Shown: piece after piece, positions 649 to 59,649 of the stretch
Numbering within the stretch: position 1 is the first letter of the stretch
How the letters are laid out: each line of letters opens with the position of its first letter
From: Pseudanabaena galeata CCNP1313
GTDB lineage: Bacteria > Cyanobacteriota > Cyanobacteriia > Pseudanabaenales > Pseudanabaenaceae
Reading direction: 5' to 3'
NCBI RefSeq assembly: GCF_029910235.1
Contig: NZ_CP112874.1
Location: 4,702,501-4,766,500 of the forward strand
DNA length: 64,000 bases
Notes under the pieces: generated by a model
Databases searched by the model: none
Told to the model about the DNA's origin: nothing
Seen by the model: only the letters and a program-made list of their open reading frames with translations
Translations under genes and position numbers: made by a program

Positions 649-3024
649 ATGACCGATCCTTTAGCCGAAAAACTTGGTATTAACGTTCAAGGTGGAACGG
701 TAAATGTTCAAAACCTCAACATTGGTATTGCGGCAAGACTTGAACAGTCGGGTGATCGCGTTAGGATTTTGGTGGTAGCAGCTAATCCGTTAGGATCGTC
801 GCCTCTGAAGTTAGACCATGAGGTAAAAACCATCCAAGAGGCATTAAGGCGATCGCGCAAACGTGATAATTTCGTGGTGGAATATCGTCTGGCGGCTACC
901 CCTTCAGAATTGCGGCGTGCTTTGTTGGATTTGGAACCCCATGTTTTGCATTTTAGTGGTCACGGTTCGGGAGAGCAGGGTTTGCTATTTGTGAGTGATG
1001 AGTCGGCGGGGGCGATCTATCGTTCTAATAGTGGTGAGGTGAGATCGCGTTCGACTAATTCTAATGAAATTAAATTTGTTCCCGCGCAACCACTGGCAAA
1101 TTTGTTGCAACTTTGCGATGAACATCTGGAATGTGTGGTGTTGAATGCTTGTTATTCAGATGTACAGGGTGATGCGATATCAGCAAATATTTCCTTTGCG
1201 ATTGGAATGCGTGATGTGGTTGAGGATAATGTGGCGATTAAGTTTTCGCAGGGGTTTTATGATGCGATCGGGGCGGGGAAAGGTTATGAAAGTGCTTTTA
1301 AATGGGGAAAGGCGGCGATCGAGTTCGATCTCGCTAATGATGAAGCAACCAAGATTCTCATTTTAAGAAAGAGAGGAGAAATTATTGAACATGCAGTAAT
1401 CAATGAACAAGCAACTATAAAAAAAAAATTAAATAAAATTTTTATAGTTGTAATTATTGTAGTTGTAGTTTTGATTGTATTTTTAGCGGCTGCCTTTGTT
1501 ATGCCTGCTCAGCCTAAGTCTGCTCCTATTATTATTACACCCGAAGAATACTTTAAAAAAGCAGAGTCTGCCCTCAACAAAGGGAACAGGCAAGGAGCGA
1601 TCGCTGACTACAACGAAGCCATCCGCCTCAATCCTAATTTAGTTCTTGCTTATGCTAAACGTGGTTTAGCCTTCAAACTTCTTAACGAAAAAGATAGTGC
1701 TGATAGAGATTTTAAAACAGCAATTAATTTGCAAGTTAAGACGGCTGAAGATTATCGCGGTAGAGGTATTGCGAAGTATGGATTAGAAGACAAACAAGGA
1801 GCGATTGCCGACTACAACGAAACTATCCGCCTCAATCCTAAAAACGCTGATGCTTACCTTTTGCGCGGGGCAGTTAAATATGAATTAGGAGATAAACAAG
1901 GAGCGATCGCCGACTACAACGAAGCCATCCGCATCAATCCTAAAAAAGCTGATGCTTACACTGGTCGTGGGAATGCAAAGGATGACTTAGGAGACAAACA
2001 AGGAGCAATTGCCGACTACAACGAAGCTATCCGTCTCAATCCTAATTATGTTAATGCTTATTTCAATAGAGGGATTACGAAGTATAGCTTAGGAGACAAA
2101 CAAGGAGCGATCGCCGACTCCAACGAAACTATCCGCCTCAATCCTAAAAACGCTGATGCTTACCTTTTGCGCGGGGCAGTTAAATATGAATTAGGAGATA
2201 AACAAGGAGCGATCGCCGACTACAACGAAGCTATCCGTCTCAATCCTAATTATGTTAATGCTTATTTCAATAGAGGGATTACGAAGTATAGCTTAGGAGA
2301 CAAACAAGGAGCGATTGCCGACTACAACGAAACTATCCGCCTCAATCCTAAAAACGCTGATGCTTACCTTTTGCGCGGGGCAGTTAAATATGAATTAGGA
2401 GATAAACAAGGAGCGATCGCCGACTACAACGAAGCCATCCGCATCAATCCTAAAAAAGCTGATGCTTACACTGGTCGTGGGAATGCAAAGGATGACTTAG
2501 GAGACAAACAAGGAGCAATTGCCGACTACAACGAAGCTATCCGTCTCAATCCTAATTATGTTAATGCTTATTTCAATAGAGGGATTACGAAGTATAGCTT
2601 AGGAGACAAACAAGGAGCGATCGCCGACTACAACGAAACTATCCGACTCAAGCCTGATTATGCTGATGCTTATTTCAATAGAGGGATTACGAAGTATAGC
2701 TTAGGAGACAAACAGGGCGAGATCGCCGACTACAACGAAGCCATTCGCCTCAATCCAAAAAATGCTAATGCTTATTACGGTCGCGGGAATGCGAAGGTTG
2801 AATTAGGAGACAAACAAGGAGCGATCACCGACTACAACGAAGCCATCCGCATCAAGCCTGATTTTGCTTTTGCTTACAACAATCGCGGGAATGTGAAGTC
2901 TGCACTAGGAGACAAACAAGGAGCGATCGCCGATTATCAAGAATCAGCACGGCTTTATCAACAGCAAGGCAAGACCGCAGATTATGAAGATGCTCAAAAT
3001 CAGATTAAGAAACTAGGAGGCTAA
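649..3024 (+). CDS. CHAT-domain, transmembrane, TPR-repeat protein
   Basis: 791 residues in three parts. Residues about 35-240 form a CHAT (caspase-like) domain: the His motif LHFSGHG places His105, and VVLNACYSD places Cys168, the expected catalytic pair. Residues about 264-286 are a strongly hydrophobic Ile/Val helix (IFIVVIIVVVVLIVFLAAAF) preceded by lysines, so a single membrane span. From about residue 300 to the end are roughly fourteen 34-residue TPR units with the consensus GDKQGAIADYNEAIRLNP. CHAT proteases with TPRs are known as signalling or defence effectors, but no substrate is evident here. Several TPR units are almost identical in DNA, and five consecutive units (510 bp) are duplicated. 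The N-terminus (about 25 residues, GGTVNVQNLNIG) may be a small adaptor segment; I cannot name it. Confidence 0.88.
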   Translation: MTDPLAEKLGINVQGGTVNVQNLNIGIAARLEQSGDRVRILVVAANPLGSSPLKLDHEVKTIQEALRRSRKRDNFVVEYRLAATPSELRRALLDLEPHVLHFSGHGSGEQGLLFVSDESAGAIYRSNSGEVRSRSTNSNEIKFVPAQPLANLLQLCDEHLECVVLNACYSDVQGDAISANISFAIGMRDVVEDNVAIKFSQGFYDAIGAGKGYESAFKWGKAAIEFDLANDEATKILILRKRGEIIEHAVINEQATIKKKLNKIFIVVIIVVVVLIVFLAAAFVMPAQPKSAPIIITPEEYFKKAESALNKGNRQGAIADYNEAIRLNPNLVLAYAKRGLAFKLLNEKDSADRDFKTAINLQVKTAEDYRGRGIAKYGLEDKQGAIADYNETIRLNPKNADAYLLRGAVKYELGDKQGAIADYNEAIRINPKKADAYTGRGNAKDDLGDKQGAIADYNEAIRLNPNYVNAYFNRGITKYSLGDKQGAIADSNETIRLNPKNADAYLLRGAVKYELGDKQGAIADYNEAIRLNPNYVNAYFNRGITKYSLGDKQGAIADYNETIRLNPKNADAYLLRGAVKYELGDKQGAIADYNEAIRINPKKADAYTGRGNAKDDLGDKQGAIADYNEAIRLNPNYVNAYFNRGITKYSLGDKQGAIADYNETIRLKPDYADAYFNRGITKYSLGDKQGEIADYNEAIRLNPKNANAYYGRGNAKVELGDKQGAITDYNEAIRIKPDFAFAYNNRGNVKSALGDKQGAIADYQESARLYQQQGKTADYEDAQNQIKKLGG
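1788..2629 (+). repeat. 510-bp duplication inside the TPR array
   Basis: Bases 1788-2119 and 2298-2629 read as identical over 332 bp, at an offset of exactly 510 bp (five 102-bp TPR units). The identity ends where TCC at 2119-2121 corresponds to TAC at 2629-2631. This suggests recent unequal recombination or gene conversion. Confidence 0.9.
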
Positions 3025-3138
3025 TTGAAAGGAAAAAGGAAAAAAATTTGAAATAGTAAGCAAATTAGAGAAAAGTTTAAAATAGCTGTCAAATTAGCGA
3101 ATATTAAATAGCTAAGAAAACTTAAAAAGCGCAGGTTA

Positions 3139-3202
3139 AGATCCCCGACTTTTTTTGTGAATTTGTAAATTGTCCTTGCTTGCTGAGAAAAAGTCGGGGA
3201 TC
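3139..3202. repeat. Inverted repeat between CHAT-TPR and Rpn genes
   Basis: The sequence AGATCCCCGACTTTTT occurs near 3139 and its reverse complement, AAAAAGTCGGGGATCT, near 3187, separated by about 30 bp. This is a dispersed cyanobacterial style of inverted repeat. It could fold as a terminator for either convergent neighbour. Confidence 0.75.
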
Positions 3203-3293
3203 TATGCATTTACAGGTTTCTTTTGATGACCGACATAGGAGGTTAACCCATACAAATTACTATTGAAACACCCGATGAACTCAGCATGTGAAA

Positions 3294-4184
3294 CTATTTC
3301 TTCTTGCTAAACCAAAGCTCCAAATCCGCAAGACTCTGAAAATCCAAAATCGCTTCAGCAAGACTCTCTAAGCGAGGGATATGTAATCGCGTAATTCTAG
3401 TATGCAGCTTTGGCGGCAAAGTTCCAAACTTGTGGGTTAGCAATCTTAAAACAATCGCAACTAAACCTTCCTTGCGACCTTCCTTGCGACCCTCTTGGCG
3501 ACCTTCTTGACGACCTTCTTGGCGACCTTCTTGGCGACCTTCTTGGCGACCTTCACGAAGAATTGCTTGATATGTCACTGACTCGCGCATGATATCTCTC
3601 CTCAAAATTTGCTTAATGATATTTTCTTCTAAAACCAGACCAGCCAAAACAAAAGTTGCGGCTCCAATAGTTTGACGTGTTTTTTGCTCAGGGATTTCAT
3701 CAATTTTTTGAGCAATATCTTGTAATAAGCGCTCTTTATTACCCGCATTTACAAGTATAGCAAAGGGTAACATACCCGTAAATTCTAAAAAATTAGCAAG
3801 GGGTTGTTCCCATAGCCTGATCACTTCAAATGCGTGGTGAGTTGTGCTTTCCTCAAACTTGTCTTGAAAAACCACATCTGAACTTGTTTCCTTCAGGTAA
3901 ATTACAACTTGACGCATCTTTTTATCAGGAAAGCGCCTTTTGCCACGCACCCAATAGTCCAACATTCTAAACGGAATTTGTGGATCGGCTTTGGTTTGAA
4001 ATTCTAAATGTAGTAGTAATCCTTCCGCTTCTAGCAAGATCAAACTATCGGCACGAATTGGCTCAACCGCTAACTCTTGTGGTTGGACTTGGGCAAGTGG
4101 GATTGGCTCACCGAAAAGCCATGAGGCAATGTCGGCAGAATAAGTTTCAGCAAGAAATTTACAAATATTATCAAACATCACCAA
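3294..4184 (-). CDS. Rpn-family PD-(D/E)XK nuclease-like protein with DUF4351 C-terminus
   Basis: 296 residues. Near residues 45-75, DSLILLEAEGLLLHLEFQTK followed by DPQIPFRMLDYWVR is the hallmark of the Rpn / transposase_31-like family common in cyanobacteria. The acidic residues and the ExQxK-type end are consistent with a PD-(D/E)XK core. The C-terminal 60 residues (LLTHKFGTLPP...IPRLESLAEAILDFQSLADLELWF) match DUF4351. Between them is a low-complexity run of GRQE units. Family members are proposed to promote recombination or act in conflict systems; the activity here is inferred. Confidence 0.85.
   Translation of the reverse strand: MVMFDNICKFLAETYSADIASWLFGEPIPLAQVQPQELAVEPIRADSLILLEAEGLLLHLEFQTKADPQIPFRMLDYWVRGKRRFPDKKMRQVVIYLKETSSDVVFQDKFEESTTHHAFEVIRLWEQPLANFLEFTGMLPFAILVNAGNKERLLQDIAQKIDEIPEQKTRQTIGAATFVLAGLVLEENIIKQILRRDIMRESVTYQAILREGRQEGRQEGRQEGRQEGRQEGRKEGRKEGLVAIVLRLLTHKFGTLPPKLHTRITRLHIPRLESLAEAILDFQSLADLELWFSKKK
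3466..3553 (-). repeat. 12-bp tandem repeat encoding EGRQ units
   Basis: About seven copies of a 12-bp unit (CTTCTTGGCGAC on the plus strand) encode REGRQEGRQEG-type repeats in the Rpn-family gene. The unit length is a multiple of three, so copy-number change would keep the frame. This is typical of slippage-prone linkers in this family. Confidence 0.9.
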
Positions 4185-5073: not shown

Positions 5074-6033
5074 CTAATTCTCTGGTTTGAGATCGCGTTC
5101 CATTAGTCCTTCAACTGCTTGTTGTAAGGTAATTTCTCCTTGCAGTAACCGATAAACATAACGTGATACAGGTACGCTAATTTTTTCTCGATCGCTAATT
5201 TCGATTAACACATTCGCCGTATTTACACCTTCAGCCGTACCTTGCACATTTGTGATCGCCTCTTCGAGGCTTTTACCCTGCGTGATCGCATAGCCCACTT
5301 GATAATTACGACTGAGATTGCTATTGCAAGTTGCTAAGAGATCGCCTAAGCCAGACAAGCCCCAAAATGTTTCAGGTTGCGCCCCAAAGTAAACGCCAAC
5401 CCGAATAATTTCAATCAGCGATCGCGTAATTAATGCAGATTTGGCATTTGTACCGAGGTTTAATCCATCACAAGCACCAACGGCGATCGCAATCACGTTT
5501 TTGAGCGTACCGCCCAACTCCACCCCGATGGGATCGGAATTTGTGTAGACCCTGAAATTTCTAGATGCAAAAATATTTTGAATAAATTGGGCGGCAGATG
5601 CATCGGTACTTGCCACCACCGTTGCCGCAGGTTGTCCCATCATAATTTCTTTAGAAAGATTTGGTCCTGATAACACTACAAGCGGATGATCGGGAATTAG
5701 CGATCGCCAAATTTGTGATGGGGTTTGTCTAGTAACTGGCTCCAGCCCCTTAGTGGCACTGACTAAAACCGCATGGGGCTGAAGTTTTGCTGTTTTTAAT
5801 TTTTCGGCGATCGTTCTTACTCCTTTGATCGATACTGCGGAGACAATGGCATCACTATTACTAACCATTTCTGCTAAAGATAATTGACTTTGGCGAGACC
5901 AAATTTGCACATGATGTTGATTGGTTTGAACTAAAGTTGCGAGTGCCGATCCCCACGCACCAGAGCCAATGATCGTCACATTTTTTACGTCTGATTTCAT
6001 GTTTTTGTTAGTTGATTGGATAGCAATTGCCAT
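5074..6033 (-). CDS. gpsA: NAD(P)-dependent glycerol-3-phosphate dehydrogenase
   Basis: 319 residues from the first ATG. The Rossmann motif GSGAWGSALA is at residues 23-32, and VLSGPNLSKEI, GVELGGTLKNVIAIAVG and GLSGLGDLLATCNS are signature GpsA blocks. It reduces dihydroxyacetone phosphate to sn-glycerol-3-phosphate for membrane lipid synthesis. Met12 (ATG ending at 6000) would place the Rossmann fold closer to the N-terminus and is an alternative start; no clear Shine-Dalgarno separates the two. A perfect 33-bp-arm palindrome begins 8 bp upstream of the first ATG. Confidence 0.93.
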   Translation of the reverse strand: MAIAIQSTNKNMKSDVKNVTIIGSGAWGSALATLVQTNQHHVQIWSRQSQLSLAEMVSNSDAIVSAVSIKGVRTIAEKLKTAKLQPHAVLVSATKGLEPVTRQTPSQIWRSLIPDHPLVVLSGPNLSKEIMMGQPAATVVASTDASAAQFIQNIFASRNFRVYTNSDPIGVELGGTLKNVIAIAVGACDGLNLGTNAKSALITRSLIEIIRVGVYFGAQPETFWGLSGLGDLLATCNSNLSRNYQVGYAITQGKSLEEAITNVQGTAEGVNTANVLIEISDREKISVPVSRYVYRLLQGEITLQQAVEGLMERDLKPEN

Positions 6034-6040
6034 AGTGCTT

Positions 6041-6109
6041 CAACCCAAATAAGAAAGAATTTAAAACCGTGGCTTTGCCACGGTTTTAAATTCTTTCTTA
6101 TTTGGGTTG
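6041..6109. repeat. Perfect palindrome, 33-bp arms, TTT loop
   Basis: The arms 6041-6073 and 6077-6109 are perfect reverse complements around TTT. The core is CCGTGGC-TTT-GCCACGG. It is one of the window-wide palindromes and sits in the gpsA 5' region rather than at a gene end. Confidence 0.95.
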
Positions 6110-6247
6110 CATCCGTCGAGATGAGTATTAAAGGATCGGCAACTTAATAAAGAAACCATTTTATGGCGGGCAGCAAAACCGCCCATCATAAAAGTCAAGC
6201 ACTAGCAAAAACAAGACTAGCAGCCAAACTCCAGATCACGACGGTGA

Positions 6248-6253
6248 TATAAT
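6248..6253 (+). promoter_or_regulatory. Possible -10 element upstream of the BFN gene
   Basis: A consensus TATAAT hexamer lies about 134 bp upstream of the ATG at 6387. A weak CAAACT at 6225-6230 would be the -35 with 17-bp spacing. This is supported only by sequence resemblance. Confidence 0.35.
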
Positions 6254-6386
6254 AGCGTGCAGAAGCCTCTCAAGCACTAAAACCCTTGCTAGATAGATAT
6301 TGATCGTCTTTAATTATCAATATCACATCAAGAGCTTTGATGGATGAGGGGTACTTTCGCTCATTTCTTGAGGAAGGCTAGCAACA

Positions 6387-6884
6387 ATGATCGAAATGAA
6401 TGTGGCTGGGATTGCTATTGATGCTGTGAGCCGTAATCCTATCGTCCTATTACGAGACACTTTAGAACGGAGAGCATTGCCAATCTGGATTGGTGAAGCT
6501 GAAGCTAAAGCAATCATTGGGGCGCTAGATGGCAGACCTCTAGAGCGCCCAATGACCCATGATCTCATGCTAAATTTCTTGGATGCGTGGGGCATAACAG
6601 TTGAGCGAATAGTCGTTCATGCACTTAAAAACAGTACTTTTTATGCTGTAATTACGGTTTCTCAGGGAGATATAAAAAAAGAAATAGATGCCCGTCCTAG
6701 TGATGCGATCGCGATCGCAGTGCGGGCAAAATGTCCAATCTGGGTGATGGAGGAGGTCATTCTCGAAGCCTCGATTCCTGTAGATCAGGATGCAGATGAA
6801 GCCGAAAGAAGAGCATTTCGTGAATTTTTGGCAAAGCTTACGCCCGAAGAATTAGTTAAAAAAAGTGGGCTTGAGAGCAATTAA
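6387..6884 (+). CDS. Bifunctional nuclease family (BFN/DUF151) protein
   Basis: 165 residues. NPIVLLRDTLERRALPIWIGEAEAKAI at the N-terminus and IDARPSDAIAIAVRAKCPIWV in the middle are the defining BFN/DUF151 blocks. The C-terminal acidic segment ending EFLAKLTPEELVKKSG is typical of the cyanobacterial branch. Plant and mycobacterial relatives are reported nucleases or regulators; the role in cyanobacteria is unclear. The ATG is preceded by TTGAGGAAGG, an adequate ribosome binding site. A strong hairpin begins at the stop codon. Confidence 0.9.
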   Translation: MIEMNVAGIAIDAVSRNPIVLLRDTLERRALPIWIGEAEAKAIIGALDGRPLERPMTHDLMLNFLDAWGITVERIVVHALKNSTFYAVITVSQGDIKKEIDARPSDAIAIAVRAKCPIWVMEEVILEASIPVDQDADEAERRAFREFLAKLTPEELVKKSGLESN

Positions 6885-33169: not shown

Positions 33170-33506
33170 TTCTATCGAAATTTTTCTGACTTCCCGTTTT
33201 AAAAAAGATCTTAGTCAATTAGCTAAACGTTATCGTTCAATTCGTAAGGATCTAGAACCTCTGCTTGAGCAGCTTAAATCAGGAGAAGTTCTAGGCGATC
33301 AAATTTCTGGTTTGAATAATCAATTATTTAAGGTTCGTCTCAAAAATAGCAATATTCAAAAGGGAAAAAGTGCTGGTTATCGGGTTATTTATTATGTGAA
33401 AACTGAAGCCAGTGTGGTTTTGGTGACGATTTATTCTAAGTCTGACACATCAGATATAGAGAATATTGTGATTGAAAAAATTATTAAAGAATTTGTGGAG
33501 GAATAG
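33159..33506 (+). CDS. RelE/ParE-family toxin
   Basis: 115 residues from ATG 33159, overlapping the antitoxin by 11 bp, typical for translationally coupled type II modules. IFLTSRFKKDLSQLAKRYRS and GKSAGYRVIYYVKTEASVVLVTIYSKSDTSDI follow the RelE fold pattern with the core R-(x)-YRVIYY and the final strand. RelE toxins cleave mRNA at the ribosome and ParE toxins poison gyrase; which applies cannot be told by eye. The gene appears intact. Confidence 0.85.
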   Translation: MSSNSIEIFLTSRFKKDLSQLAKRYRSIRKDLEPLLEQLKSGEVLGDQISGLNNQLFKVRLKNSNIQKGKSAGYRVIYYVKTEASVVLVTIYSKSDTSDIENIVIEKIIKEFVEE

Positions 33507-47929: not shown

Positions 47930-49062
47930 TAAAAATCTACACCACGTTTGAGGTCTACGCCTTTTTCAGCGTAGTGCTTGTGACAGACCATTTCTGAATG
48001 AACGGATGCAAGGTCAAAGTAAGCGGGCTGGTTGAGACAACGCCCTGTAATGATCACTTCAGTATCGCGGGATTTTTTGAGCAATGCTTGGCAGATTGGC
48101 TCGACGGGTAGTAAATCCAGATCAACAGTGGGATTGAGTTCGTCAAGGATGATCGTTTTGTAAAGTCCTGAAGCGATCGCTGCCTGAGCGATTTCCCAAC
48201 CACGTTGCGCTTCGATGCAGTCCATTTCCTGTTGTTGACCACGCCAGACGATCGCATCACGTCCACAGCGCTGATGATCGATTACATGGGGATAGCCACG
48301 TTTGAGAGCAGCGATCGCTGCATCTTCGGTATAGCCAGCACCACCCTTGAGCCATTGCATGATCAGCACACGATGGGATAGATCTCGACTAATGCCTGTA
48401 CCGATCGCCTTAAGCGATCGCCCCAAAGCCGAGGTGCTTTTGCCTTTACCAGCACCTGTATAAATCTCAATTCCCGTCACATCATATTTCTCAGCATGGG
48501 CATCATCATGCGATCGCATTTCCGAGTGTAGATCAGCGATATCAATTAATGCTTGAGGTGCACCGCGTCCTGTGCAGATTACTTCGAGATGGGGTGGTTT
48601 ATGCTTTAAATCTTTGACAACGCGATCGACGGGGATTAGTCCTAAATCAAGAACAGGATTAATTTCATCTAAAACCACTACGGAGTAAAGCCCTGAAGCC
48701 ATTGCCCCTTTAGCGATCGCCCAACCTCGTTCGGCTTCTTGGCGATCGAAGGGTGTGACATGTTCAGCATCAAAAAATTCAGAGCGACCAGTCCGCACAT
48801 GATCGATTAAGTGAGGAAATCCTTGTTGCAATGCGGAAATTGCGGCATCTTCTGAATATTCACGCTCCGAACCTTTGAGAAAGCGCAATAACAAAATTCT
48901 TGTGCCGAAGGGTGATGTGTCGGACATGCCTAAGCCAAGCGATCTCAAAACTACGCCCAATGCTGCCTGTGATTTGCCTTTGCCTGTGCCGTCATAAACA
49001 TGGATTTGTCCGATCTCACGTTCGGGACGCACCTGTGCGGTCATGATGCCTATCGCTGCCAT
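47929..49062 (-). CDS. Tandem CobO/BtuR-like P-loop protein
   Basis: 377 residues made of two homologous halves, each a BtuR/CobO-type ATP:cob(I)alamin adenosyltransferase fold. Half 1 (about 15-190) has P-loop DGTGKGKSQAALG and VVVLDEINPVLDLGLI; half 2 (about 200-370) has TGAGKGKSTSALG and IILDELNPTVDLDLL. Both retain the P-loop and DE(I/L)NP motif, so both may bind ATP. BtuR itself is about 200 residues, so this is a fused duplication. Activity in cobalamin metabolism is inferred. Met7 is an alternative start. Confidence 0.85.
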   Translation of the reverse strand: MAAIGIMTAQVRPEREIGQIHVYDGTGKGKSQAALGVVLRSLGLGMSDTSPFGTRILLLRFLKGSEREYSEDAAISALQQGFPHLIDHVRTGRSEFFDAEHVTPFDRQEAERGWAIAKGAMASGLYSVVVLDEINPVLDLGLIPVDRVVKDLKHKPPHLEVICTGRGAPQALIDIADLHSEMRSHDDAHAEKYDVTGIEIYTGAGKGKSTSALGRSLKAIGTGISRDLSHRVLIMQWLKGGAGYTEDAAIAALKRGYPHVIDHQRCGRDAIVWRGQQQEMDCIEAQRGWEIAQAAIASGLYKTIILDELNPTVDLDLLPVEPICQALLKKSRDTEVIITGRCLNQPAYFDLASVHSEMVCHKHYAEKGVDLKRGVDF

Positions 49063-49213
49063 GTCTTTATCTAAGCTCTTTCATTTCTCATTCACTGTGA
49101 TTATATCGAAAACCCAAAACATAAAGGTACTCACTTCAATATGGCATAGGCTAGCGATCGCAGTATGATATTTAGAGTATGGTTCCAAGATTTTTTCGCG
49201 AGGCATTGATTGC

Positions 49214-49537
49214 ATGAACTCAAGTCTTAAAATTAATAATCCCCCATCTCAGAAAAATCGTATTGTCTTTCTGGATAAGGCTCGAATTGCAATTGACTTT
49301 TTGCCAAGTAAAGATAAAGAGCAAATCGTCAATACAGTCAAATGCTTAGAAGATTTCCCTGTTTGCACCAAAGCTAAGATCTATAAACTTAATCCTTCTG
49401 TCCCCAACCACTTCATTGCCAGAGGAAGAGGTGATTATCGAATTGTGTTCAAATCACAAGATAGAGAGATCACTATTGTGGATGTAGTTAGTCGTAGTCG
49501 TCTTGAATTTCTGTTTGGGGATGCAAAAAATCATTAA
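49214..49537 (+). CDS. RelE-like toxin-fold protein
   Basis: 107 residues. IVNTVKCLEDFPVCTKAKIYKL and HFIARGRGDYRIVFKSQDRE followed by ITIVDVVSRSRLEFLF follow the RelE/HigB fold pattern, with the Arg-rich YRIVF strand and final aromatic. No antitoxin precedes it: upstream of the ATG is an ordinary gap. The TAA overlaps the ATG of the Shedu-like gene by one base (TAATG), so the two are translationally coupled. It may be a toxin whose partner is the nuclease-like gene, or a structural module of a two-gene defence system. Confidence 0.68.
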   Translation: MNSSLKINNPPSQKNRIVFLDKARIAIDFLPSKDKEQIVNTVKCLEDFPVCTKAKIYKLNPSVPNHFIARGRGDYRIVFKSQDREITIVDVVSRSRLEFLFGDAKNH

Positions 49538-50184
49538 TGACAAAAATAGATTCATTTAAATTAGATATTAGCCAGTGTTTTGCTGAACTTCAAGAGTTTG
49601 AAAATTTACTCATTGCAAAAGATGAACTATCTGAAACTAAAGACATATTGCCATTTTTCAAGTCAAGATTACATCTATCAGCATTCATTGCCTACTACGC
49701 TCCCAGCATGATCACATTTGATCGTATTAAGCATGAGTTTTCATTTTTTGGCGATTTTCGTGCAGATTTAATCGTTGGAGATTCTACACATCATACGTAT
49801 TGCTTTATCGAATTTGAGGATGCCACTAAAAACAGTATTTTTACACGCAAAAAAGGAAAAAGCACATCAGAATGGTCGCCAAGATTTGAACATGGTTTTA
49901 GCCAAATTGTTGATTGGTTTTGGAAAATTGATGATCTTAAAAACACTGATTCGGCACGCAACATTTTTGGTAACAGTAATATAGAAATTTATGGAATTAT
50001 CGTTATTGGTAGAGATAAGTTCTTGTCAGAACTTGATAACAGTAGATTAAAGTGGCGTTTGAATAAAGTTGTAGTTGATTCCAGAAAGATAATTTGTATA
50101 ACCTTCGATCAGTTAGCCAAAGATATAAGAGATCGCCTCAACCTATATCAAACAATTTACGAAGCAGAACCTGAAAGCGAATAG
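49537..50184 (+). CDS. Shedu-like (SduA/DUF4263) nuclease-fold protein
   Basis: 215 residues. FFGDFRADLIVGDSTHHTYC followed by FIEFEDATKNSIF, then EWSPRFEHGFSQIVDWFWKI and GIIVIGRDKFL resemble the Shedu C-terminal nuclease domain. Asp77 and Glu92 would fit a PD-(D/E)XK core, with Gln123 in the usual following helix; the third position is Glu94 instead of Lys, an oddity. Shedu proteins are single-gene anti-phage systems. This one is short and lacks a recognisable N-terminal sensor, unless the overlapping RelE-like gene plays that part. Assignment is by motif memory only. Confidence 0.65.
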   Translation: MTKIDSFKLDISQCFAELQEFENLLIAKDELSETKDILPFFKSRLHLSAFIAYYAPSMITFDRIKHEFSFFGDFRADLIVGDSTHHTYCFIEFEDATKNSIFTRKKGKSTSEWSPRFEHGFSQIVDWFWKIDDLKNTDSARNIFGNSNIEIYGIIVIGRDKFLSELDNSRLKWRLNKVVVDSRKIICITFDQLAKDIRDRLNLYQTIYEAEPESE

Positions 50185-50423
50185 TTTTTTTGGTCAGAAT
50201 GCTAAAATCTATGTCTTAGAGCCAATATATTTGTGTCATGAGAAAATTTGCAACGCGATCGCTCAATTTACATAAATTCATGCTTTATACCCAATCGTAA
50301 ACAAAAAGGTACTTTCTAGAGCCGCGATCGCCCCTGAAACTAACTGTCCTAACTACCCCTTTCTTTGCTGTGGCATAGCCATTTTATGTTTTGCTATAAC
50401 ATATAGTCCATAAGGTAATCAGG

Positions 50424-51560
50424 ATGCAGCAAATTCTTGTAATTGATGACGATCTTGTCATGCAAATGATTCTGAAAAATACACTGCAAGCACAAAAATA
50501 TGAAGTAATTGTCGCAAAGAATGGAAAGGAAGGAATATCATTAGCCAAACAATATCAACCAGCCTTAATCATCTGTGACTGGATGATGCCAGACATAGAT
50601 GGATTAGAAGTCTGTCATCAAATTAAGCTGGATGATAATTTGTCTTCAACGATCTTTATTTTATTAACTTCCAAAGGTGCTGTCGAAGATAAGGTGAAAG
50701 CTCTAGATAATGGAGCTGATGATTTTTTATCTAAACCGATCGATAAGACTGAATTAATCGCTAGTGTCAGAGCGGGTTTAAGAATCTATCAACTTAATAA
50801 AGACTTACAATCACAAAAGCAGTTACTAGAGGCGGAATTTGCGGAGGCAGGAGAATATATAAGAGCTTTGTTGCCTTTGACTTTAGAAGGTGTAGTAAAC
50901 ATTACGGCTGAGTTTATTCCCTCTAGTCAACTGGGTGGAGATTGTTATGACTTTTATTGGTTAGATCCTGATCATTTAGCTATTTATTTGATCGATACTT
51001 CTGGGCATGGCGTAGGTTCAGCATTATTATCCATTTCAATTTTAAATCTCTTGCGATCACAGTCCTTTGGGAAAGAGAAGTTTTATGAGCCTAGCGCAAT
51101 TATGACAGAGCTTAATCGGGCTTTTCAGATGAGTCAGCACAATGGACGCTATTTCACAATGTGGTATGGAGTCTACGAGCGATCGCAACGTAAGCTGATC
51201 TATGCTAATGCTGGACATCCGCAAGGAATTTTGATTTCTGGAACTCCTGAAAGTCCTCAGATTCAAGAACTTCCTAGTCTAGATATGCCTATAGGATTTT
51301 TCCCTGATGTGGATTACACTAGCTCGGAACTATCGATAGCGCCAGACAGTAAGCTTTATATTTTCAGTGATGGCATTTTTGAAGTTATGCAAGAAAATGA
51401 CAAGATATGGGGAATGCCTAAGTTTTTCAATTACTTAGTAGAAAAATTCTCGTTGAGTGAAGAAATTAGTATAAATTCAGTTATGCAAAAAATCCAGAGC
51501 CAAACGCCAAACGCCAAATCTGGTGATGATGTTTCGCTATTACAAATTCACTTCCCATAG
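50424..51560 (+). CDS. Response regulator with PP2C/SpoIIE phosphatase output
   Basis: 378 residues. Residues 1-125 are a receiver domain with acidic pair DDD near residue 8-10, phospho-acceptor in ICDWMMPDIDG (about Asp53), Thr/Ser in LLTSKG and Lys in DDFLSKPID. A short coiled linker (about 125-155) leads to a SpoIIE-type phosphatase (about 165-378) with SSQLGGDCYDF, LIDTSGHGVGSALLS, YANAGHPQG and SDGIFE. Such RsbU/IcfG-like proteins dephosphorylate anti-sigma antagonist proteins. A histidine kinase partner is not nearby. Confidence 0.92.
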   Translation: MQQILVIDDDLVMQMILKNTLQAQKYEVIVAKNGKEGISLAKQYQPALIICDWMMPDIDGLEVCHQIKLDDNLSSTIFILLTSKGAVEDKVKALDNGADDFLSKPIDKTELIASVRAGLRIYQLNKDLQSQKQLLEAEFAEAGEYIRALLPLTLEGVVNITAEFIPSSQLGGDCYDFYWLDPDHLAIYLIDTSGHGVGSALLSISILNLLRSQSFGKEKFYEPSAIMTELNRAFQMSQHNGRYFTMWYGVYERSQRKLIYANAGHPQGILISGTPESPQIQELPSLDMPIGFFPDVDYTSSELSIAPDSKLYIFSDGIFEVMQENDKIWGMPKFFNYLVEKFSLSEEISINSVMQKIQSQTPNAKSGDDVSLLQIHFP

Positions 51561-52708: not shown

Positions 52709-55700
52709 ATGTCCTTAGAAAATTTTCAAGCTGAAATTTTGCGTTTAGTGGTTGAATCTGAGCAAATGCAGCGATCGCCGCGAGAGGGTAAACCTGAAGA
52801 AGCTACCAAAAGCCGTTTATTAGAGCCTTTGCTCACTGCTTTGGGCTATACGCCTGAATGTCGCACACCAGAGGGAAAGATCAAAAGCCTGATTCGGACT
52901 ACGACTTGGGTTGATTATTTACTCAAACCTGATGCTGGTGCTAGACCTGTGCTGATGTTTGAGGCGAAGAGTCTGTGGGATAAGGATATTTGGGAAAGCA
53001 ATAAGCAACAAGTTCTAGATTATTTGCGCGATTACAGCTTAGATATTGCCAATGATCAGCCTGTATTGTGGATAGTTTTATCCAATTTTCGAGAATGGTA
53101 TGTATTGCGTTTACAGGATAAGACACCATTTTGGCAGTTTAAAATTGAAGATTTGCAAAATGATCCTGAATTAAGGGAACGGCTTTATGGTTGTTTGGCT
53201 AGGGAGAATTTACGCGGCGATCGCTTAACAGCTTATTACACAGAAAATACTAGGGAAGGTCTAGGGGCTAGGTTTTTAGCGGATTTAAAAATTTGGCGGG
53301 CGATTCTGGCGAACGGAATTAAAGCTTCGCAACCTGAACTAAGTTTAGATAGAATTCGAGAAGCTTCGCAGGTAATTCTTAATCGTTTTTTGTTGATTCG
53401 ATTATTGGAAGCTTTTAGTTCGGAAATGCCCTATAACTATTTAGGAAGAATTTATTACAATTGGCAGGAGACTTTTGCTGATTTACCTTTTATCGAAGAA
53501 CTGCGTAAGGGGTTTCGGAATACTTGGGTGGGTTATAATACAGAACTTTTTCATCTGTCATGGGTGGATGAGTTGGATATTGAGAGTGATTATTTAGAGC
53601 CATTGATTATCGTTAATGCAGTACCTAAAGATGGGTTTCTGTATGCGATCGCAGGAACTTTAACGGAATATCGCTCAATTTATAATTATGATTTTACGAC
53701 TCTAACTCAAGATATTTTAGGAACTGCTTATGAGCAGTTTTTGGCTCACCAATTAATTGAAGATGGAAATCAAGTCAAGATTCTCGAAAACCAACAAACT
53801 CGCAAGCGTGAGGGGGTTTTCTATACGCCTGAATATATTGTGCGGCGGATTGTTTATCAAACTTTGCAGCCTTTAGTTGAAACAAAAATTGATCAAGCGA
53901 TCGCTTTACTGCAATCCCATAATTTTACCGAAGCATATAACGTAGCTAGTTCAGTTTTAGAAATCACTGTTTGCGATCCTGCCTGTGGTTCAGGGTCATT
54001 TTTATTGGGAGCCTTTGATTATTTATTAGAAGAGTTAAAGCGCTATAACAAGGCTTGTGAAAATCCTAACTTGACTTCGGGTAATGGTGATTTATTTAGT
54101 CACGCGGCGGCAATTCCAATTAATAATATCGAAGAAAGTATTGTTGTGAAAATGCTGCATGGTGTGGATCTCGATCCACAAGCTGTACTTTTAGCGAAAT
54201 TATCATTATGGACAAGATTGCTTCGCGCTCGTCCTAATGTTTATGGTAAACGAAAAACACTTAATTCTAAGTTGCCTGCTTTGGCTTTAAATATTCGGGT
54301 TGGTAATAGTTTGATTCATTCGCCTGCTAATTTAGAGTCTGTATCTGTGCAGTTAGCAAAGGCGGCGGATTTAGCGATCACAGCTAGAAATGTGACTTTA
54401 TCAGAACGCGATCGCGCTCAAGCAGTGACAAATTTAGAGCGTTGTATTACGGAGATTAATCAACAAGTTAATCCAGTATTGACGGCTTTTTTTGCTAGTG
54501 ATGAGAGTTTGCAAGAAGCGATTAAATCAATCAAAAATCGAAATTCTAATGAAAAGGAAATTATCGCTATTCGTTTGTATCTTACCTCAGAATCTCTAGA
54601 AAATGGAACAAGGGGCTTAAGCCCCTTGCCTGACTGGACAGTTACTGAATTTGAGCGATTGAAATCGCAACTAATGTTAATTCCTACGGCTTTAGAAGAA
54701 GCGATCATAAAGCGTCCCTTTAACTGGCAAGTGGAATTTCCCCATGTTTTCGATCTACGTTTACCAGCAGATCAAAGGGGATTTGCGGCGATTATTGGGA
54801 ATCCACCTTATTTTAGTGTTGATGCTACGTTTGGTAGAGGTGCATCAGAATTGTTATGGTTAAAGACAGTTTATGCTGATATTTACAATGATAAAACTGA
54901 TATTTTATTTTACTTTTTGCGCTGGGGCTATGAATTGCTCAAACAATCAGGAACGTTAAGCTTTATTGTTTCACGTGCTTTTATTCAGGGTGACAAGTCA
55001 AAAAATTTACGCGAATTTCTAAGCCAAAACACAAAAATCACCTATCTCCTTGATTTCTTAGGTCATAAAGTTTTTAATGCTGGAATTGCTACTTGTATTA
55101 TTCAATATCAAAAACAGGTTCCTGATGATGAAAGTAATTTTGTAACTGATTACGTTCTCGATTTTGATAAAGCTAAAACTGCAATTACTAAAAAATTAGA
55201 ACTATCTATTCACAATGGTTTTGCTAAAGTTAAGATTAACCAAGAAAATTTAAAATCTGATAGATGGGAAATTTCTCCTTATAGTCATATCTTTAGTGAA
55301 ATTGATCTAAGCGGAATAAAGATAAGGGAAACAAACTATGTCAAATATATGGAGGGAATTACTACGGGCAAAGATGCTATTTTCGAGGGGAGCTTTACAC
55401 GCAAATTTCCAAAAGATTTTTTGTGTTCAAGAGTATCAATATCTTCAATTCAGGCTTTTGGTCATAAACCATCTGAAACACAGTTAATTTATTATACTCA
55501 CAGCACAAAATGGAATGATATTCCTACATCATTGAAAAAATATCTTGAGTCAAAAAGACAAGATTTAGAAAGTAGAGATGTTTTTAAAAATAGAACAAGT
55601 AGTTATGAATGGTTTCAATTACATAGACCAAGAAACGGGTTACTTGCACCAAAAATATTCTTCCCTCGCCGCGCCAATTCTAATAAATTTGCTGTGGATG

Positions 55701-56599
55701 AAGATGGATCATTAGGTTTTAAAAGTGATGTTGCTGGCTTTGTGAAAGCTGAAAACACGAATATAGAGACCCTTTATTATATTTGTGCTTTGCTCAATTC
55801 CAAACCATTAGAATTCCGTTACAGAGCTTTAGGAGGTATCGGTAAACTCACAGGGAAAGGGATGTTTGAATACTTTGAGAATCAAGTTGGTGATATACCG
55901 ATTCCTGTATTTGAGCAACCAGAAGATAATCCAGACTTTCAAGAACTAGCACAACTTGGCAAAGAAGCCCATCAAATTTGGCGCGATCGCTACTCGATTA
56001 TCACTACCTACCAAGCCAAATCCTCAGCGATCCCATATACCGAAGTCTCCGCCACCTATTACCACAACATCACAGGCGACTATGGTGCAGATATCGAATA
56101 TGAAAGTCTCAACCCAAACCGTGAAGGACATTTACTCTCACTAAAAATAGAACCAACCATTGATGGTTATCGCCTCTGGGGCGAAATTACCGAAGATGAA
56201 GATTGGAAAGAAGGCGATCGCGAATGGGTCGAACTTGTCACCGTGAGAATTCGTAATAACTTCCTGCGCCGCTATTTACTAGCTAGACTAATTTATTTAA
56301 TTGAATTTGATCAAGATTTTCGCCGTAAACAAAAGCTTACCCGTGATATTAGCAATTTGGGAAACTCCGCCTTTGTAGCACTTAAAGTTTATCAATATGA
56401 TCTCGATCGCATTAGTAACTTGCGTGTACTCGAAGTCATCGAGCAACGAGTTCAACAAGAAGCAGGGCGATCGGATTTAGAAAATATTTTGCTGCGACAA
56501 GCAGAAATTCAAAATCAAATTGATCAAATTGCCTATAGATTATATGGAGTAACAGAATATCAAGAAGTAATCGAGCAAGCGCTAAAAGTTGTTCTTTGA
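52709..56599 (+). CDS. Type IIG-like restriction enzyme and N6-adenine methyltransferase
   Basis: 1296 residues. The N-terminal nuclease region has Asp69, Glu85 and Lys87 (VDYLLKPDAGARPVLMFEAK), a PD-(D/E)XK pattern. The methyltransferase core has motif I CDPACGSGSFLLGAF (about 421) and motif IV IIGNPPYFS (about 696). After it comes a TaqI-like specificity region (EITPY/EISPYSHIFSEIDL; LLAPKIFFPRRANSNKFAVD) and a C-terminal helical domain. One polypeptide would methylate and cut its own target. A GGGGCTTAAGCCCC palindrome is embedded near 54612. The target sequence cannot be deduced. Confidence 0.9.
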   Translation: MSLENFQAEILRLVVESEQMQRSPREGKPEEATKSRLLEPLLTALGYTPECRTPEGKIKSLIRTTTWVDYLLKPDAGARPVLMFEAKSLWDKDIWESNKQQVLDYLRDYSLDIANDQPVLWIVLSNFREWYVLRLQDKTPFWQFKIEDLQNDPELRERLYGCLARENLRGDRLTAYYTENTREGLGARFLADLKIWRAILANGIKASQPELSLDRIREASQVILNRFLLIRLLEAFSSEMPYNYLGRIYYNWQETFADLPFIEELRKGFRNTWVGYNTELFHLSWVDELDIESDYLEPLIIVNAVPKDGFLYAIAGTLTEYRSIYNYDFTTLTQDILGTAYEQFLAHQLIEDGNQVKILENQQTRKREGVFYTPEYIVRRIVYQTLQPLVETKIDQAIALLQSHNFTEAYNVASSVLEITVCDPACGSGSFLLGAFDYLLEELKRYNKACENPNLTSGNGDLFSHAAAIPINNIEESIVVKMLHGVDLDPQAVLLAKLSLWTRLLRARPNVYGKRKTLNSKLPALALNIRVGNSLIHSPANLESVSVQLAKAADLAITARNVTLSERDRAQAVTNLERCITEINQQVNPVLTAFFASDESLQEAIKSIKNRNSNEKEIIAIRLYLTSESLENGTRGLSPLPDWTVTEFERLKSQLMLIPTALEEAIIKRPFNWQVEFPHVFDLRLPADQRGFAAIIGNPPYFSVDATFGRGASELLWLKTVYADIYNDKTDILFYFLRWGYELLKQSGTLSFIVSRAFIQGDKSKNLREFLSQNTKITYLLDFLGHKVFNAGIATCIIQYQKQVPDDESNFVTDYVLDFDKAKTAITKKLELSIHNGFAKVKINQENLKSDRWEISPYSHIFSEIDLSGIKIRETNYVKYMEGITTGKDAIFEGSFTRKFPKDFLCSRVSISSIQAFGHKPSETQLIYYTHSTKWNDIPTSLKKYLESKRQDLESRDVFKNRTSSYEWFQLHRPRNGLLAPKIFFPRRANSNKFAVDEDGSLGFKSDVAGFVKAENTNIETLYYICALLNSKPLEFRYRALGGIGKLTGKGMFEYFENQVGDIPIPVFEQPEDNPDFQELAQLGKEAHQIWRDRYSIITTYQAKSSAIPYTEVSATYYHNITGDYGADIEYESLNPNREGHLLSLKIEPTIDGYRLWGEITEDEDWKEGDREWVELVTVRIRNNFLRRYLLARLIYLIEFDQDFRRKQKLTRDISNLGNSAFVALKVYQYDLDRISNLRVLEVIEQRVQQEAGRSDLENILLRQAEIQNQIDQIAYRLYGVTEYQEVIEQALKVVL
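54611..54628 (+). repeat. Intragenic palindrome in the RM gene
   Basis: AAGGGGCTTAAGCCCCTT, followed by GCC, encodes RGLSPLP in the linker between motif I and motif IV. The 21-base pattern is of the dispersed GGGGCTTAAGCCCC type and is in frame. Confidence 0.7.
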
Positions 56600-58742: not shown

Positions 58743-58778
58743 AAAACAAAAGGAACGCTTTGCGTTCCTTTTGTTTTT
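58743..58778. terminator. Hairpin between convergent ABC1 and nucleotidyltransferase genes
   Basis: AAAACAAAAGGAACGC (58743-58758) pairs perfectly with 58762-58777 around TTT and is followed by T. It overlaps the opposite stop codon. Confidence 0.9.
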
Positions 58779-59649
58779 AGAAAAAAAGTTCTATCCCTGA
58801 CTCTGTACAAGCAGTCTCCAACAAATCACTGAGACTAAGTTCCTCAGCCCATTTTTGTAAATATCCAAAATCAAGGCGATCGCCTTGAATCTTTAGCACT
58901 CCCAAAACATCGCGCCATTGTCTCTGCGACTCATTCTTAGTCATCCGATACCCAACTAATTTTTGTAAAATAATATCTTCAGGAGTGGGTAATACCAACA
59001 TTTGATCGGGATTTTGTCTCACTAGTTGCGATCGGCGACGTTGAAACTCAATTTGAGGAAAAGGGTTATCTTTAAGCACAAAAATATCTATTTTCCCCAG
59101 AGAATCATTGTCGATTAGATTAAAGGAACGTTTGAACCTAATTGCATCTCTAACTGCATCTTCAGAGACATAGAATCTGGGTTGCAAAGATTGTAGTAAT
59201 GGAATTAGTTTTTCTATGGTTAAATCAGCAACAATATCCACATCTTCAGTTGCTCGAGGTTCTCCCATTAGCGTACTTGCCACCGATCCACCGACTAAAT
59301 AGGGAATATCTAAACCATTAAAAATTGCGGCTACATCCAGTGCTAGTGAAATTGGATCAGTAAGCATAAGTGGTTGCTCGTATGCAGAAATATTTTGATA
59401 TACAGAATCAGAGAAATTAAGTTTAAGTGTAGCTTTAGCAAACTCGTATCGCAACTTGCTAAAACTTATACTTGGATAGCGCTGCTGAAGACCAACTAAA
59501 TGAAGTTCTAAACATCCTTTTGTCCAACCGCTAACTTTTTCAGCCTTTTGAATTAGTGTCAGAGATTTTAAGCGATTGAACAAGTACATCTCAGCATCAA
59601 TGCTGGTATCAATCGATTGAGTTTTATATCCCGCAGGTGCGCTTAGCAT
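58777..59649 (-). CDS. Nucleotidyltransferase with N-terminal helical domain
   Basis: 290 residues. The second half has the nucleotidyltransferase core (IPYLVGGSVASTLMGEPRATEDVDIVAD; GGS plus DVD) like the AbiEii/MNT-type families. The first about 85 residues (AEMYLFNRLKSLTLIQKAEK followed by VSGWTKGCLELHLVGLQQRY) form a separate helical unit. In other cyanobacteria the two parts often occur as adjacent small genes; here they are one frame. Substrate unknown; a role in toxin-antitoxin-like control is possible. Confidence 0.75.
   Translation of the reverse strand: MLSAPAGYKTQSIDTSIDAEMYLFNRLKSLTLIQKAEKVSGWTKGCLELHLVGLQQRYPSISFSKLRYEFAKATLKLNFSDSVYQNISAYEQPLMLTDPISLALDVAAIFNGLDIPYLVGGSVASTLMGEPRATEDVDIVADLTIEKLIPLLQSLQPRFYVSEDAVRDAIRFKRSFNLIDNDSLGKIDIFVLKDNPFPQIEFQRRRSQLVRQNPDQMLVLPTPEDIILQKLVGYRMTKNESQRQWRDVLGVLKIQGDRLDFGYLQKWAEELSLSDLLETACTESGIELFF

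Follow-up and report, generated by a model that had tools for sequence, protein, structure and literature searches.

A gene for a RelE-fold protein followed by the gene of a short Shedu nuclease (SduA) forms a conserved pair in many unrelated bacteria, and the surveys reported here support this strongly. We came to the pair through one stretch of 64,000 nucleotides of Pseudanabaena galeata CCNP1313 (hereafter the window, meaning the whole stretch of DNA that was analysed). The host genome comprises 5.84 Mb, assembled in 6 contigs. The window is GCGATCGC-rich and its nearest relatives are cyanobacterial.

The gene pair and its surroundings

The first gene (49214..49537, + strand, 107 aa), defined as an ORF, by an AlphaFold2 model and by fold and profile searches, encodes the RelE/ParE-fold partner. 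The second gene (49537..50184, + strand, 215 aa), defined by Pfam, PADLOC and its model, encodes the short Shedu nuclease (SduA_C/DUF4263, PADLOC PDLC00379). Both meet in a TAATG junction (49535..49539, + strand), where the stop codon of gene 1 and the start codon of gene 2 overlap by one base, and this arrangement may couple their translation. An earlier note, made from the letters of the window, had given the same coordinates, strand and junction, and all of them were right.

The pair is flanked by a cobO-like gene on the opposite strand and by a response-regulator/phosphatase gene, both named from reading their translations. A type IIG-like restriction-modification gene of 1296 aa with an Eco57I match (window 52709-56599) starts 2.5 kb downstream, as the note had also described. 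No antitoxin-sized ORF was found upstream of gene 1 on the same strand, where there is only a 41-aa frame (49043-49168), so the claim that the RelE-like gene lacks a preceding antitoxin was correct. The scan for promoters and terminators gave no excess over shuffles. An imperfect direct repeat of 15 nt (93%) flanks both genes (window 49117-49131 and 50299-50313) and may be due to chance. Elsewhere in the window we observed a ParE_toxin family match barely above the Pfam cut-off (33180-33443) and, on the minus strand, a nucleotidyltransferase-like ORF with an AbiEii match below threshold (58777-59649). The rest of the host genome holds 25 ParE_toxin matches, and therefore a lone adjacency of a RelE-like gene and SduA could be a matter of chance. 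This explanation was ruled out by the conservation of the pair across phyla.

Conservation and specificity of the pair

An SduA alignment scanned over the GTDB representative genomes gave 78 loci which, by their record titles, span Cyanobacteria, Planctomycetota, Proteobacteria, Desulfobacterota and others; 3 loci from viral contigs brought the number to 81. In 79 of the 81, an ORF of 75 aa or more on the same strand adjoined the start of SduA, adjacency meaning that the ORF ended within -65 to +60 of the start of the SduA match. The mirrored test on the downstream side found an adjacent ORF in 21 of 77 loci. The two loci lacking a partner were L098, where SduA itself is disrupted, and L115, whose match begins at contig base 7, and in two others (L065 and L103) one of two candidate partner ORFs was chosen. 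The junctions are close: measured to the start of the SduA match (n=79), they comprise 30 overlaps, of which 23 are 4 bases long, along with 38 gaps of 0-30 bases and 11 of 31-65 bases.

Clustering at 35% identity sorts the partners into 25 clusters. With leave-cluster-out profiles, the adjacent ORF was matched at E<0.01 in 73 of the 79 loci and was the best match of its locus in 77, the exceptions being L074 and L123. All six misses belonged to one alphaproteobacterial cluster (Methylobacterium, Sphingomonas and Rhodopila). A non-adjacent ORF reached E<0.01 in two loci, L059 and L074. In the latter, a second partner-like protein (5605-6417, profile E 3.6e-15) is followed by a 241-aa ORF unlike SduA, a possible partner swap.

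Among 386 cyanobacterial genomes PF14082 occurred at 26 places, of which 21 were compared, the five omitted being three with a truncated SduA and two that scored under the family cut-off. The partner was present in 14 of 14 family members (window included) against 0 of 7 other Shedu, three of which gave only hits at E 0.2-0.5 that were not adjacent on the same strand. The profile used in this comparison had been trained on family partners, cyanobacterial ones among them, which leaves the leave-cluster-out test as the independent evidence; moreover, the genome-contig loci and the GTDB-search loci come partly from the same genomes, and the two surveys overlap. SduA searches also found 15 plasmid and phage records, and each of the five that were opened had an adjacent partner. 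On a Pantoea plasmid this partner (E 0.00075) matched more weakly than an annotated RelE/ParE toxin some 4 kb off (3.9e-5). In a Vibrio phage the depositor's notes place 'RelE-like' beside 'Shedu SduA', followed by 'Gabija GajB'. The earlier note had proposed a survey of co-occurrence, and actually the two genes are neighbours across phyla.

Three simpler or different arrangements were considered and rejected. A generic operon effect is ruled out by the mirrored downstream test together with the other-Shedu control. A hidden third component was sought on either side of the pair in the 79 loci, and no neighbour was homologous between partner clusters. Finally, a natural fusion of RelE and SduA in one ORF was not seen in the 79 loci, where the partner is always a separate frame or ORF.

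The Shedu protein

Gene 2 belongs to the SduA_C family: it matches Pfam PF14082 with an E of 4.6e-34 and 118.3 bits (cut-off 27) and the PADLOC SduA model PDLC00379 with an E of 7.7e-96 over all 211 positions. Its AlphaFold2 model, built from a 57-sequence alignment, reached a pLDDT of 92.6, and the best matches of this model in both Foldseek and VIA were the solved SduA structures 8ps4 and 8ti9. Foldseek ranked the E. coli and B. cereus SduA first (1.1e-7); VIA-align scored four Shedu entries at Z 13.7, 13.6, 13.3 and 11.9, and the next entry, a nicking endonuclease, at 7.9. Searches of the PDB by sequence with SduA, as a single sequence and as a profile, returned no Shedu chain, which the fold searches alone found. 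Family, PADLOC and model matches thus bear out the description of this protein as Shedu-like.

The 57 SduA sequences, which we picked from the loci, share E33, D77, E92, E94, Q123, D126, G158 and R170 without exception. Over the 79 loci, the putative catalytic Asp D77 (codon 49765..49767, + strand) is kept in 77, E92 in 77, E94 in 78 and the conserved helix Gln, Q123 (codon 49903..49905, + strand), in 79. E92-F93-E94 (codons 49810..49818, + strand) form an E-x-E where E-x-K is usual, and D77, E92 and E94 lie where the note had placed them. Therefore, with respect to the canonical PD-(D/E)XK site (Asp, Glu-x-Lys, Gln), the Asp, Glu and Gln are kept, and 78 of 79 loci have Glu where the Lys would stand. 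The replacement of Lys by Glu94 that had been noted before is real, but since this Glu is fixed, the 'missing Lys' is not decay. BamHI likewise has a Glu at this catalytic position, so an E-x-E need not mean a dead enzyme. In the seven other cyanobacterial Shedu (PF14082), three small ones carry E-x-E and four carry E-x-K. That SduA is a dead nuclease is disfavoured by the invariant residues and by the low dN/dS given below; as judged from its residues, the SduA of the pair is likely the effector nuclease, a prediction in keeping with their fixation.

The RelE/ParE-fold partner

Gene 1 matches Pfam ParE_toxin below threshold (E 0.0084, 17.1 bits, cut-off 23), and a single-sequence search of the PDB with it found nothing. 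For 45 partner relatives, again picked by us from the loci, Pfam at E up to 0.1 gave ParE_toxin in 12, ParE_like in 4, Gp49 in 3, YhaV in 2, YoeB in 2 and HigB in 1. The partner family profile matches the solved Pyrococcus RelE (1wmi) at E 4.7e-7. The AlphaFold2 model of gene 1 (45 sequences, pLDDT 84.6) matches RelE/YoeB structures with a Foldseek E of 2e-5 and a VIA Z of 12.1. By predicted fold and sequence profile, then, gene 1 is a member of the RelE/ParE superfamily, and the RelE-like fold proposed in the note stands in spite of the sub-threshold Pfam score. The fold matches of the model include Cami1, a RelE-domain effector whose structure was determined on the 70S ribosome.

The catalytic residues of E. 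coli RelE are K52, K54, R61, R81 and Y87. When the partners were aligned to this protein in two alignments, the Y87 position was Tyr in 1 or 2 of 79. The R61 position, to which R76 of gene 1 aligns (codon 49439-49441, + strand), is R in 67 of 79, and the K54 position is R or K in 55 of 79. At the K52 position 72 of 79 have V, L, I, A, M or F, and at the R81 position the residue varies (H, R, Q, K and others). The residue set of the ribosome-dependent RNase RelE is therefore not found in the partner of these 79 loci in the two alignments. Nevertheless, basic residues are often kept at the K54 and R61 positions, so that binding of RNA or the ribosome by the partner is possible.

Nor does the partner have what defines a type II toxin-antitoxin system, a cognate small antitoxin adjoining the toxin. 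Small upstream ORFs occur in 26 of the 79 loci, and none of them is homologous between partner clusters at E 1e-3. PADLOC recognised the SduA half of the pair; PDLC00379 is a full-length match to SduA which leaves out the RelE-like protein, and the latter had no match of its own.

Selection, co-divergence and decay

In seven of eight groups the dN/dS of SduA was 0.03-0.41 (mostly near 0.1) and that of the partner 0.09-0.55, so selection acts on both genes. The remaining group, the Dolichospermum loci L054-L058 in which the partner is fused, gave 0.45-1.0 for both genes and may be decaying. Partner and SduA distances are correlated (Mantel r 0.82 over 79 loci and 0.61 over 46 representatives, 0 of 5000 permutations in each), a correlation for which shared descent alone would suffice.

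Regarding the decay of the pair, the partner is open beside a disrupted SduA in ten loci (G002, G042, G087, G127-C20, G155-C77, G048-C155, L049, L057, L099 and L100) and is present with no SduA found in two more (G245 and G103). A damaged SduA with no partner found occurs in L098 and G064. No intact SduA without an adjacent ORF was seen among the loci surveyed, L115 being not judgeable. Three loci with a possibly truncated SduA (L025, L088 and L096) were excluded from this list, and L093 and G155-C77 denote one locus. Were lesions distributed in proportion to gene length (about 2:1), the probability of ten of ten falling in SduA would be about 0.02; the lesions are not all independent. In six of the 12 partner-open cases (G127, G155, G245, G103, L049 and L057) the RelE-like domain forms the end of a longer ORF (about 400 aa) that may remain open for another reason. 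Lesions in SduA beside an open partner speak against the idea that SduA restrains a RelE toxin, and the pattern, as read from the sequences, mildly favours SduA as the dangerous component.

The chromosomal slot

We compared the flanks of the pair in 20 genomes of the genus. The approximate extent of the cassette is 49118..50188 (no strand assigned), and in the same slot of congeners it is missing or substituted by other genes. Between cobO and the conserved downstream block there are only 23-43 bases in G395, G391, G387 and G393. In other congeners the slot contains a Uma2 gene (G392 and G388, and adjoining cobO in G400), AHJR-like and RusA genes (G394) or a SocA/Panacea gene with a 131-aa neighbour (G390), all identified by Pfam on one copy of each. 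With such varied contents, the RelE-SduA pair is one of several exchangeable defence- or toxin-antitoxin-like cassettes at this slot.

The slot itself corresponds to window 49063-50268, and the empty site carries a short hairpin-like repeat whose sequence differs among genomes. A second breakpoint lies at window 50268-50424, the homology to the slot of congeners stopping near 50268, and the response-regulator gene after it has its close homologues located elsewhere. Some Nostocales carry the RelE-like domain at the C-terminal end of a longer ORF (about 400 aa). By Pfam, the fused ORFs of L058 and L048 have an N-terminal AHJR-like nuclease domain, with a RusA gene upstream in L058. In L058 this arrangement lies at 2359-4004, and by ORF length the fusion was also recognised in L048, L049 and L054-L057; two of these, L049 and L057, have a damaged SduA.

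A proposed two-gene variant of Shedu

From the conserved pair, the fixed nuclease residues, the selection on both genes and the exchange of cassettes at a chromosomal slot, together with the modelled RelE and Shedu folds of the two proteins, we lean towards a two-gene variant of Shedu in which SduA would be the nuclease effector and the RelE-fold protein, not itself toxic, would regulate it or act as a sensor in trans. Both genes would form one functional module. SduA would act on DNA through its Shedu nuclease fold, with D77, E92, E94, Q123 and the E-x-E motif, and the RelE-fold protein would be a dedicated regulatory or sensing subunit in trans, not a ribosome-dependent RNase toxin, taking the role of the fused N-terminal domain in long Shedu proteins. 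Encoded first and tightly coupled to SduA, the partner may hold the nuclease off in healthy cells, being perhaps the restraint on SduA, and upon infection it would free or direct it. Physical interaction of the two proteins, nuclease activity, inhibition and release are what this scheme would entail, as well as phage defence by the pair, which family and context evidence suggests. The earlier note had left open whether SduA is effector, antitoxin or both: the effector role is likely and fits the fixed residues, whereas an antitoxin role is disfavoured, because the catalytic Tyr of the partner is nearly always absent and the partner is open in loci whose SduA is disrupted or was not found.

A more specific form of this reading, which we put forward only tentatively, takes the toxin fold as a guard. 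The RelE-fold protein would be an antitoxin-like sensor restraining the Shedu DNA nuclease, and would free it when phage disturbs the usual target of a RelE fold, be it ribosome, mRNA or gyrase. If this were true, a defence system would unite a toxin fold and an antitoxin role in one protein.

We think it rather unlikely that the RelE-like protein is instead an obligate activating or DNA/ribosome-targeting subunit and SduA inert by itself. The near-obligate pairing would suit such a subunit, as would the faster evolution of the partner, which a recognition subunit might show, and the presence of the ribosome-bound Cami1 among the fold matches. However, a lone SduA that is harmless predicts loci with an intact SduA and a broken partner, and none was seen, the numbers being small.

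A usual toxin-antitoxin system, in which the RelE-like protein is a toxin (an RNase, or one acting on gyrase as ParE does) and SduA serves as its antitoxin or as a phage sensor, is in our opinion less probable still. Toxin-first gene order is known from HigBA and gives this reading a precedent, to which the RelE/ParE fold of gene 1 and the Panacea-antitoxin gene with a small neighbour in a congener's same slot can be added. Nevertheless, the partner nearly always lacks the catalytic Tyr, it is still open in loci with a broken SduA or none found, and the nuclease residues of SduA are kept under strong purifying selection. In the available part of PMC11980606, ParE toxins are likewise described without this Tyr, and the first of these objections thus leaves a gyrase-type action of the partner possible. 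A selfish addiction cassette, with SduA as a DNA-damaging toxin, the RelE-fold protein as antitoxin and no role in phage defence, would agree with the occurrence on plasmids, phages and an exchangeable chromosomal slot and with never having seen an intact SduA without an adjacent ORF, but it is improbable in view of the SduA relatives that are anti-phage nucleases (in the part available of PMC12137116) and of the pair that adjoins a depositor-noted Gabija GajB in the Vibrio phage, even if the addiction reading is compatible with defence.

Relation to known systems

Shedu (SduA of E. coli, 8ps4, and of B. cereus, 8ti8/8ti9) shares with gene 2 the DUF4263/SduA_C nuclease domain and the predicted fold. 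The SduA of the window differs from it: it lacks a fused regulatory domain at the N-terminus, is preceded by a separate gene for a RelE-fold protein, and carries E-x-E in place of E-x-K. Shedu Types I and II are single-protein systems according to the available part of a review (PMC12409362), and by gene content alone the loci described here, with their adjacent ORF, are not of this kind. RelE, YoeB and HigB toxins have a common fold and distant sequence similarity with the partner, which is unlike RelE/ParE toxins in having no conserved antitoxin gene, in missing the catalytic Tyr and in being paired with a nuclease-fold protein. The ptuXYZ operon, with its BECR-fold protein, also combines a RelE-fold domain and a nuclease-type gene within a putative defence operon; however, as far as the accessible portion of PMC11980606 goes, it has three genes, including a DUF262 protein and a PtuA-like ATPase, and no Shedu nuclease.

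No literature naming both 'Shedu' and 'RelE-like' was found in our searches, and the broader searches did not name the RelE-Shedu pair among the matches listed. The portions available of PMC12137116, PMC9519451, PMC12948488, PMC12904381, PMC11201134, PMC12409362, PMC12839542 and PMC11980606 contain no description of the pair. We make no claim to a first description, since the text or supplements of Gu 2025, the main Shedu survey, and of Loeff 2025 could mention the pairing.

Shedu has been described as a one-protein system whose specificity is set by fused N-terminal domains. A widespread branch with a separate partner offers a separable, two-component handle on how the Shedu nuclease is held off and triggered, and the RelE fold would gain a non-toxic role.
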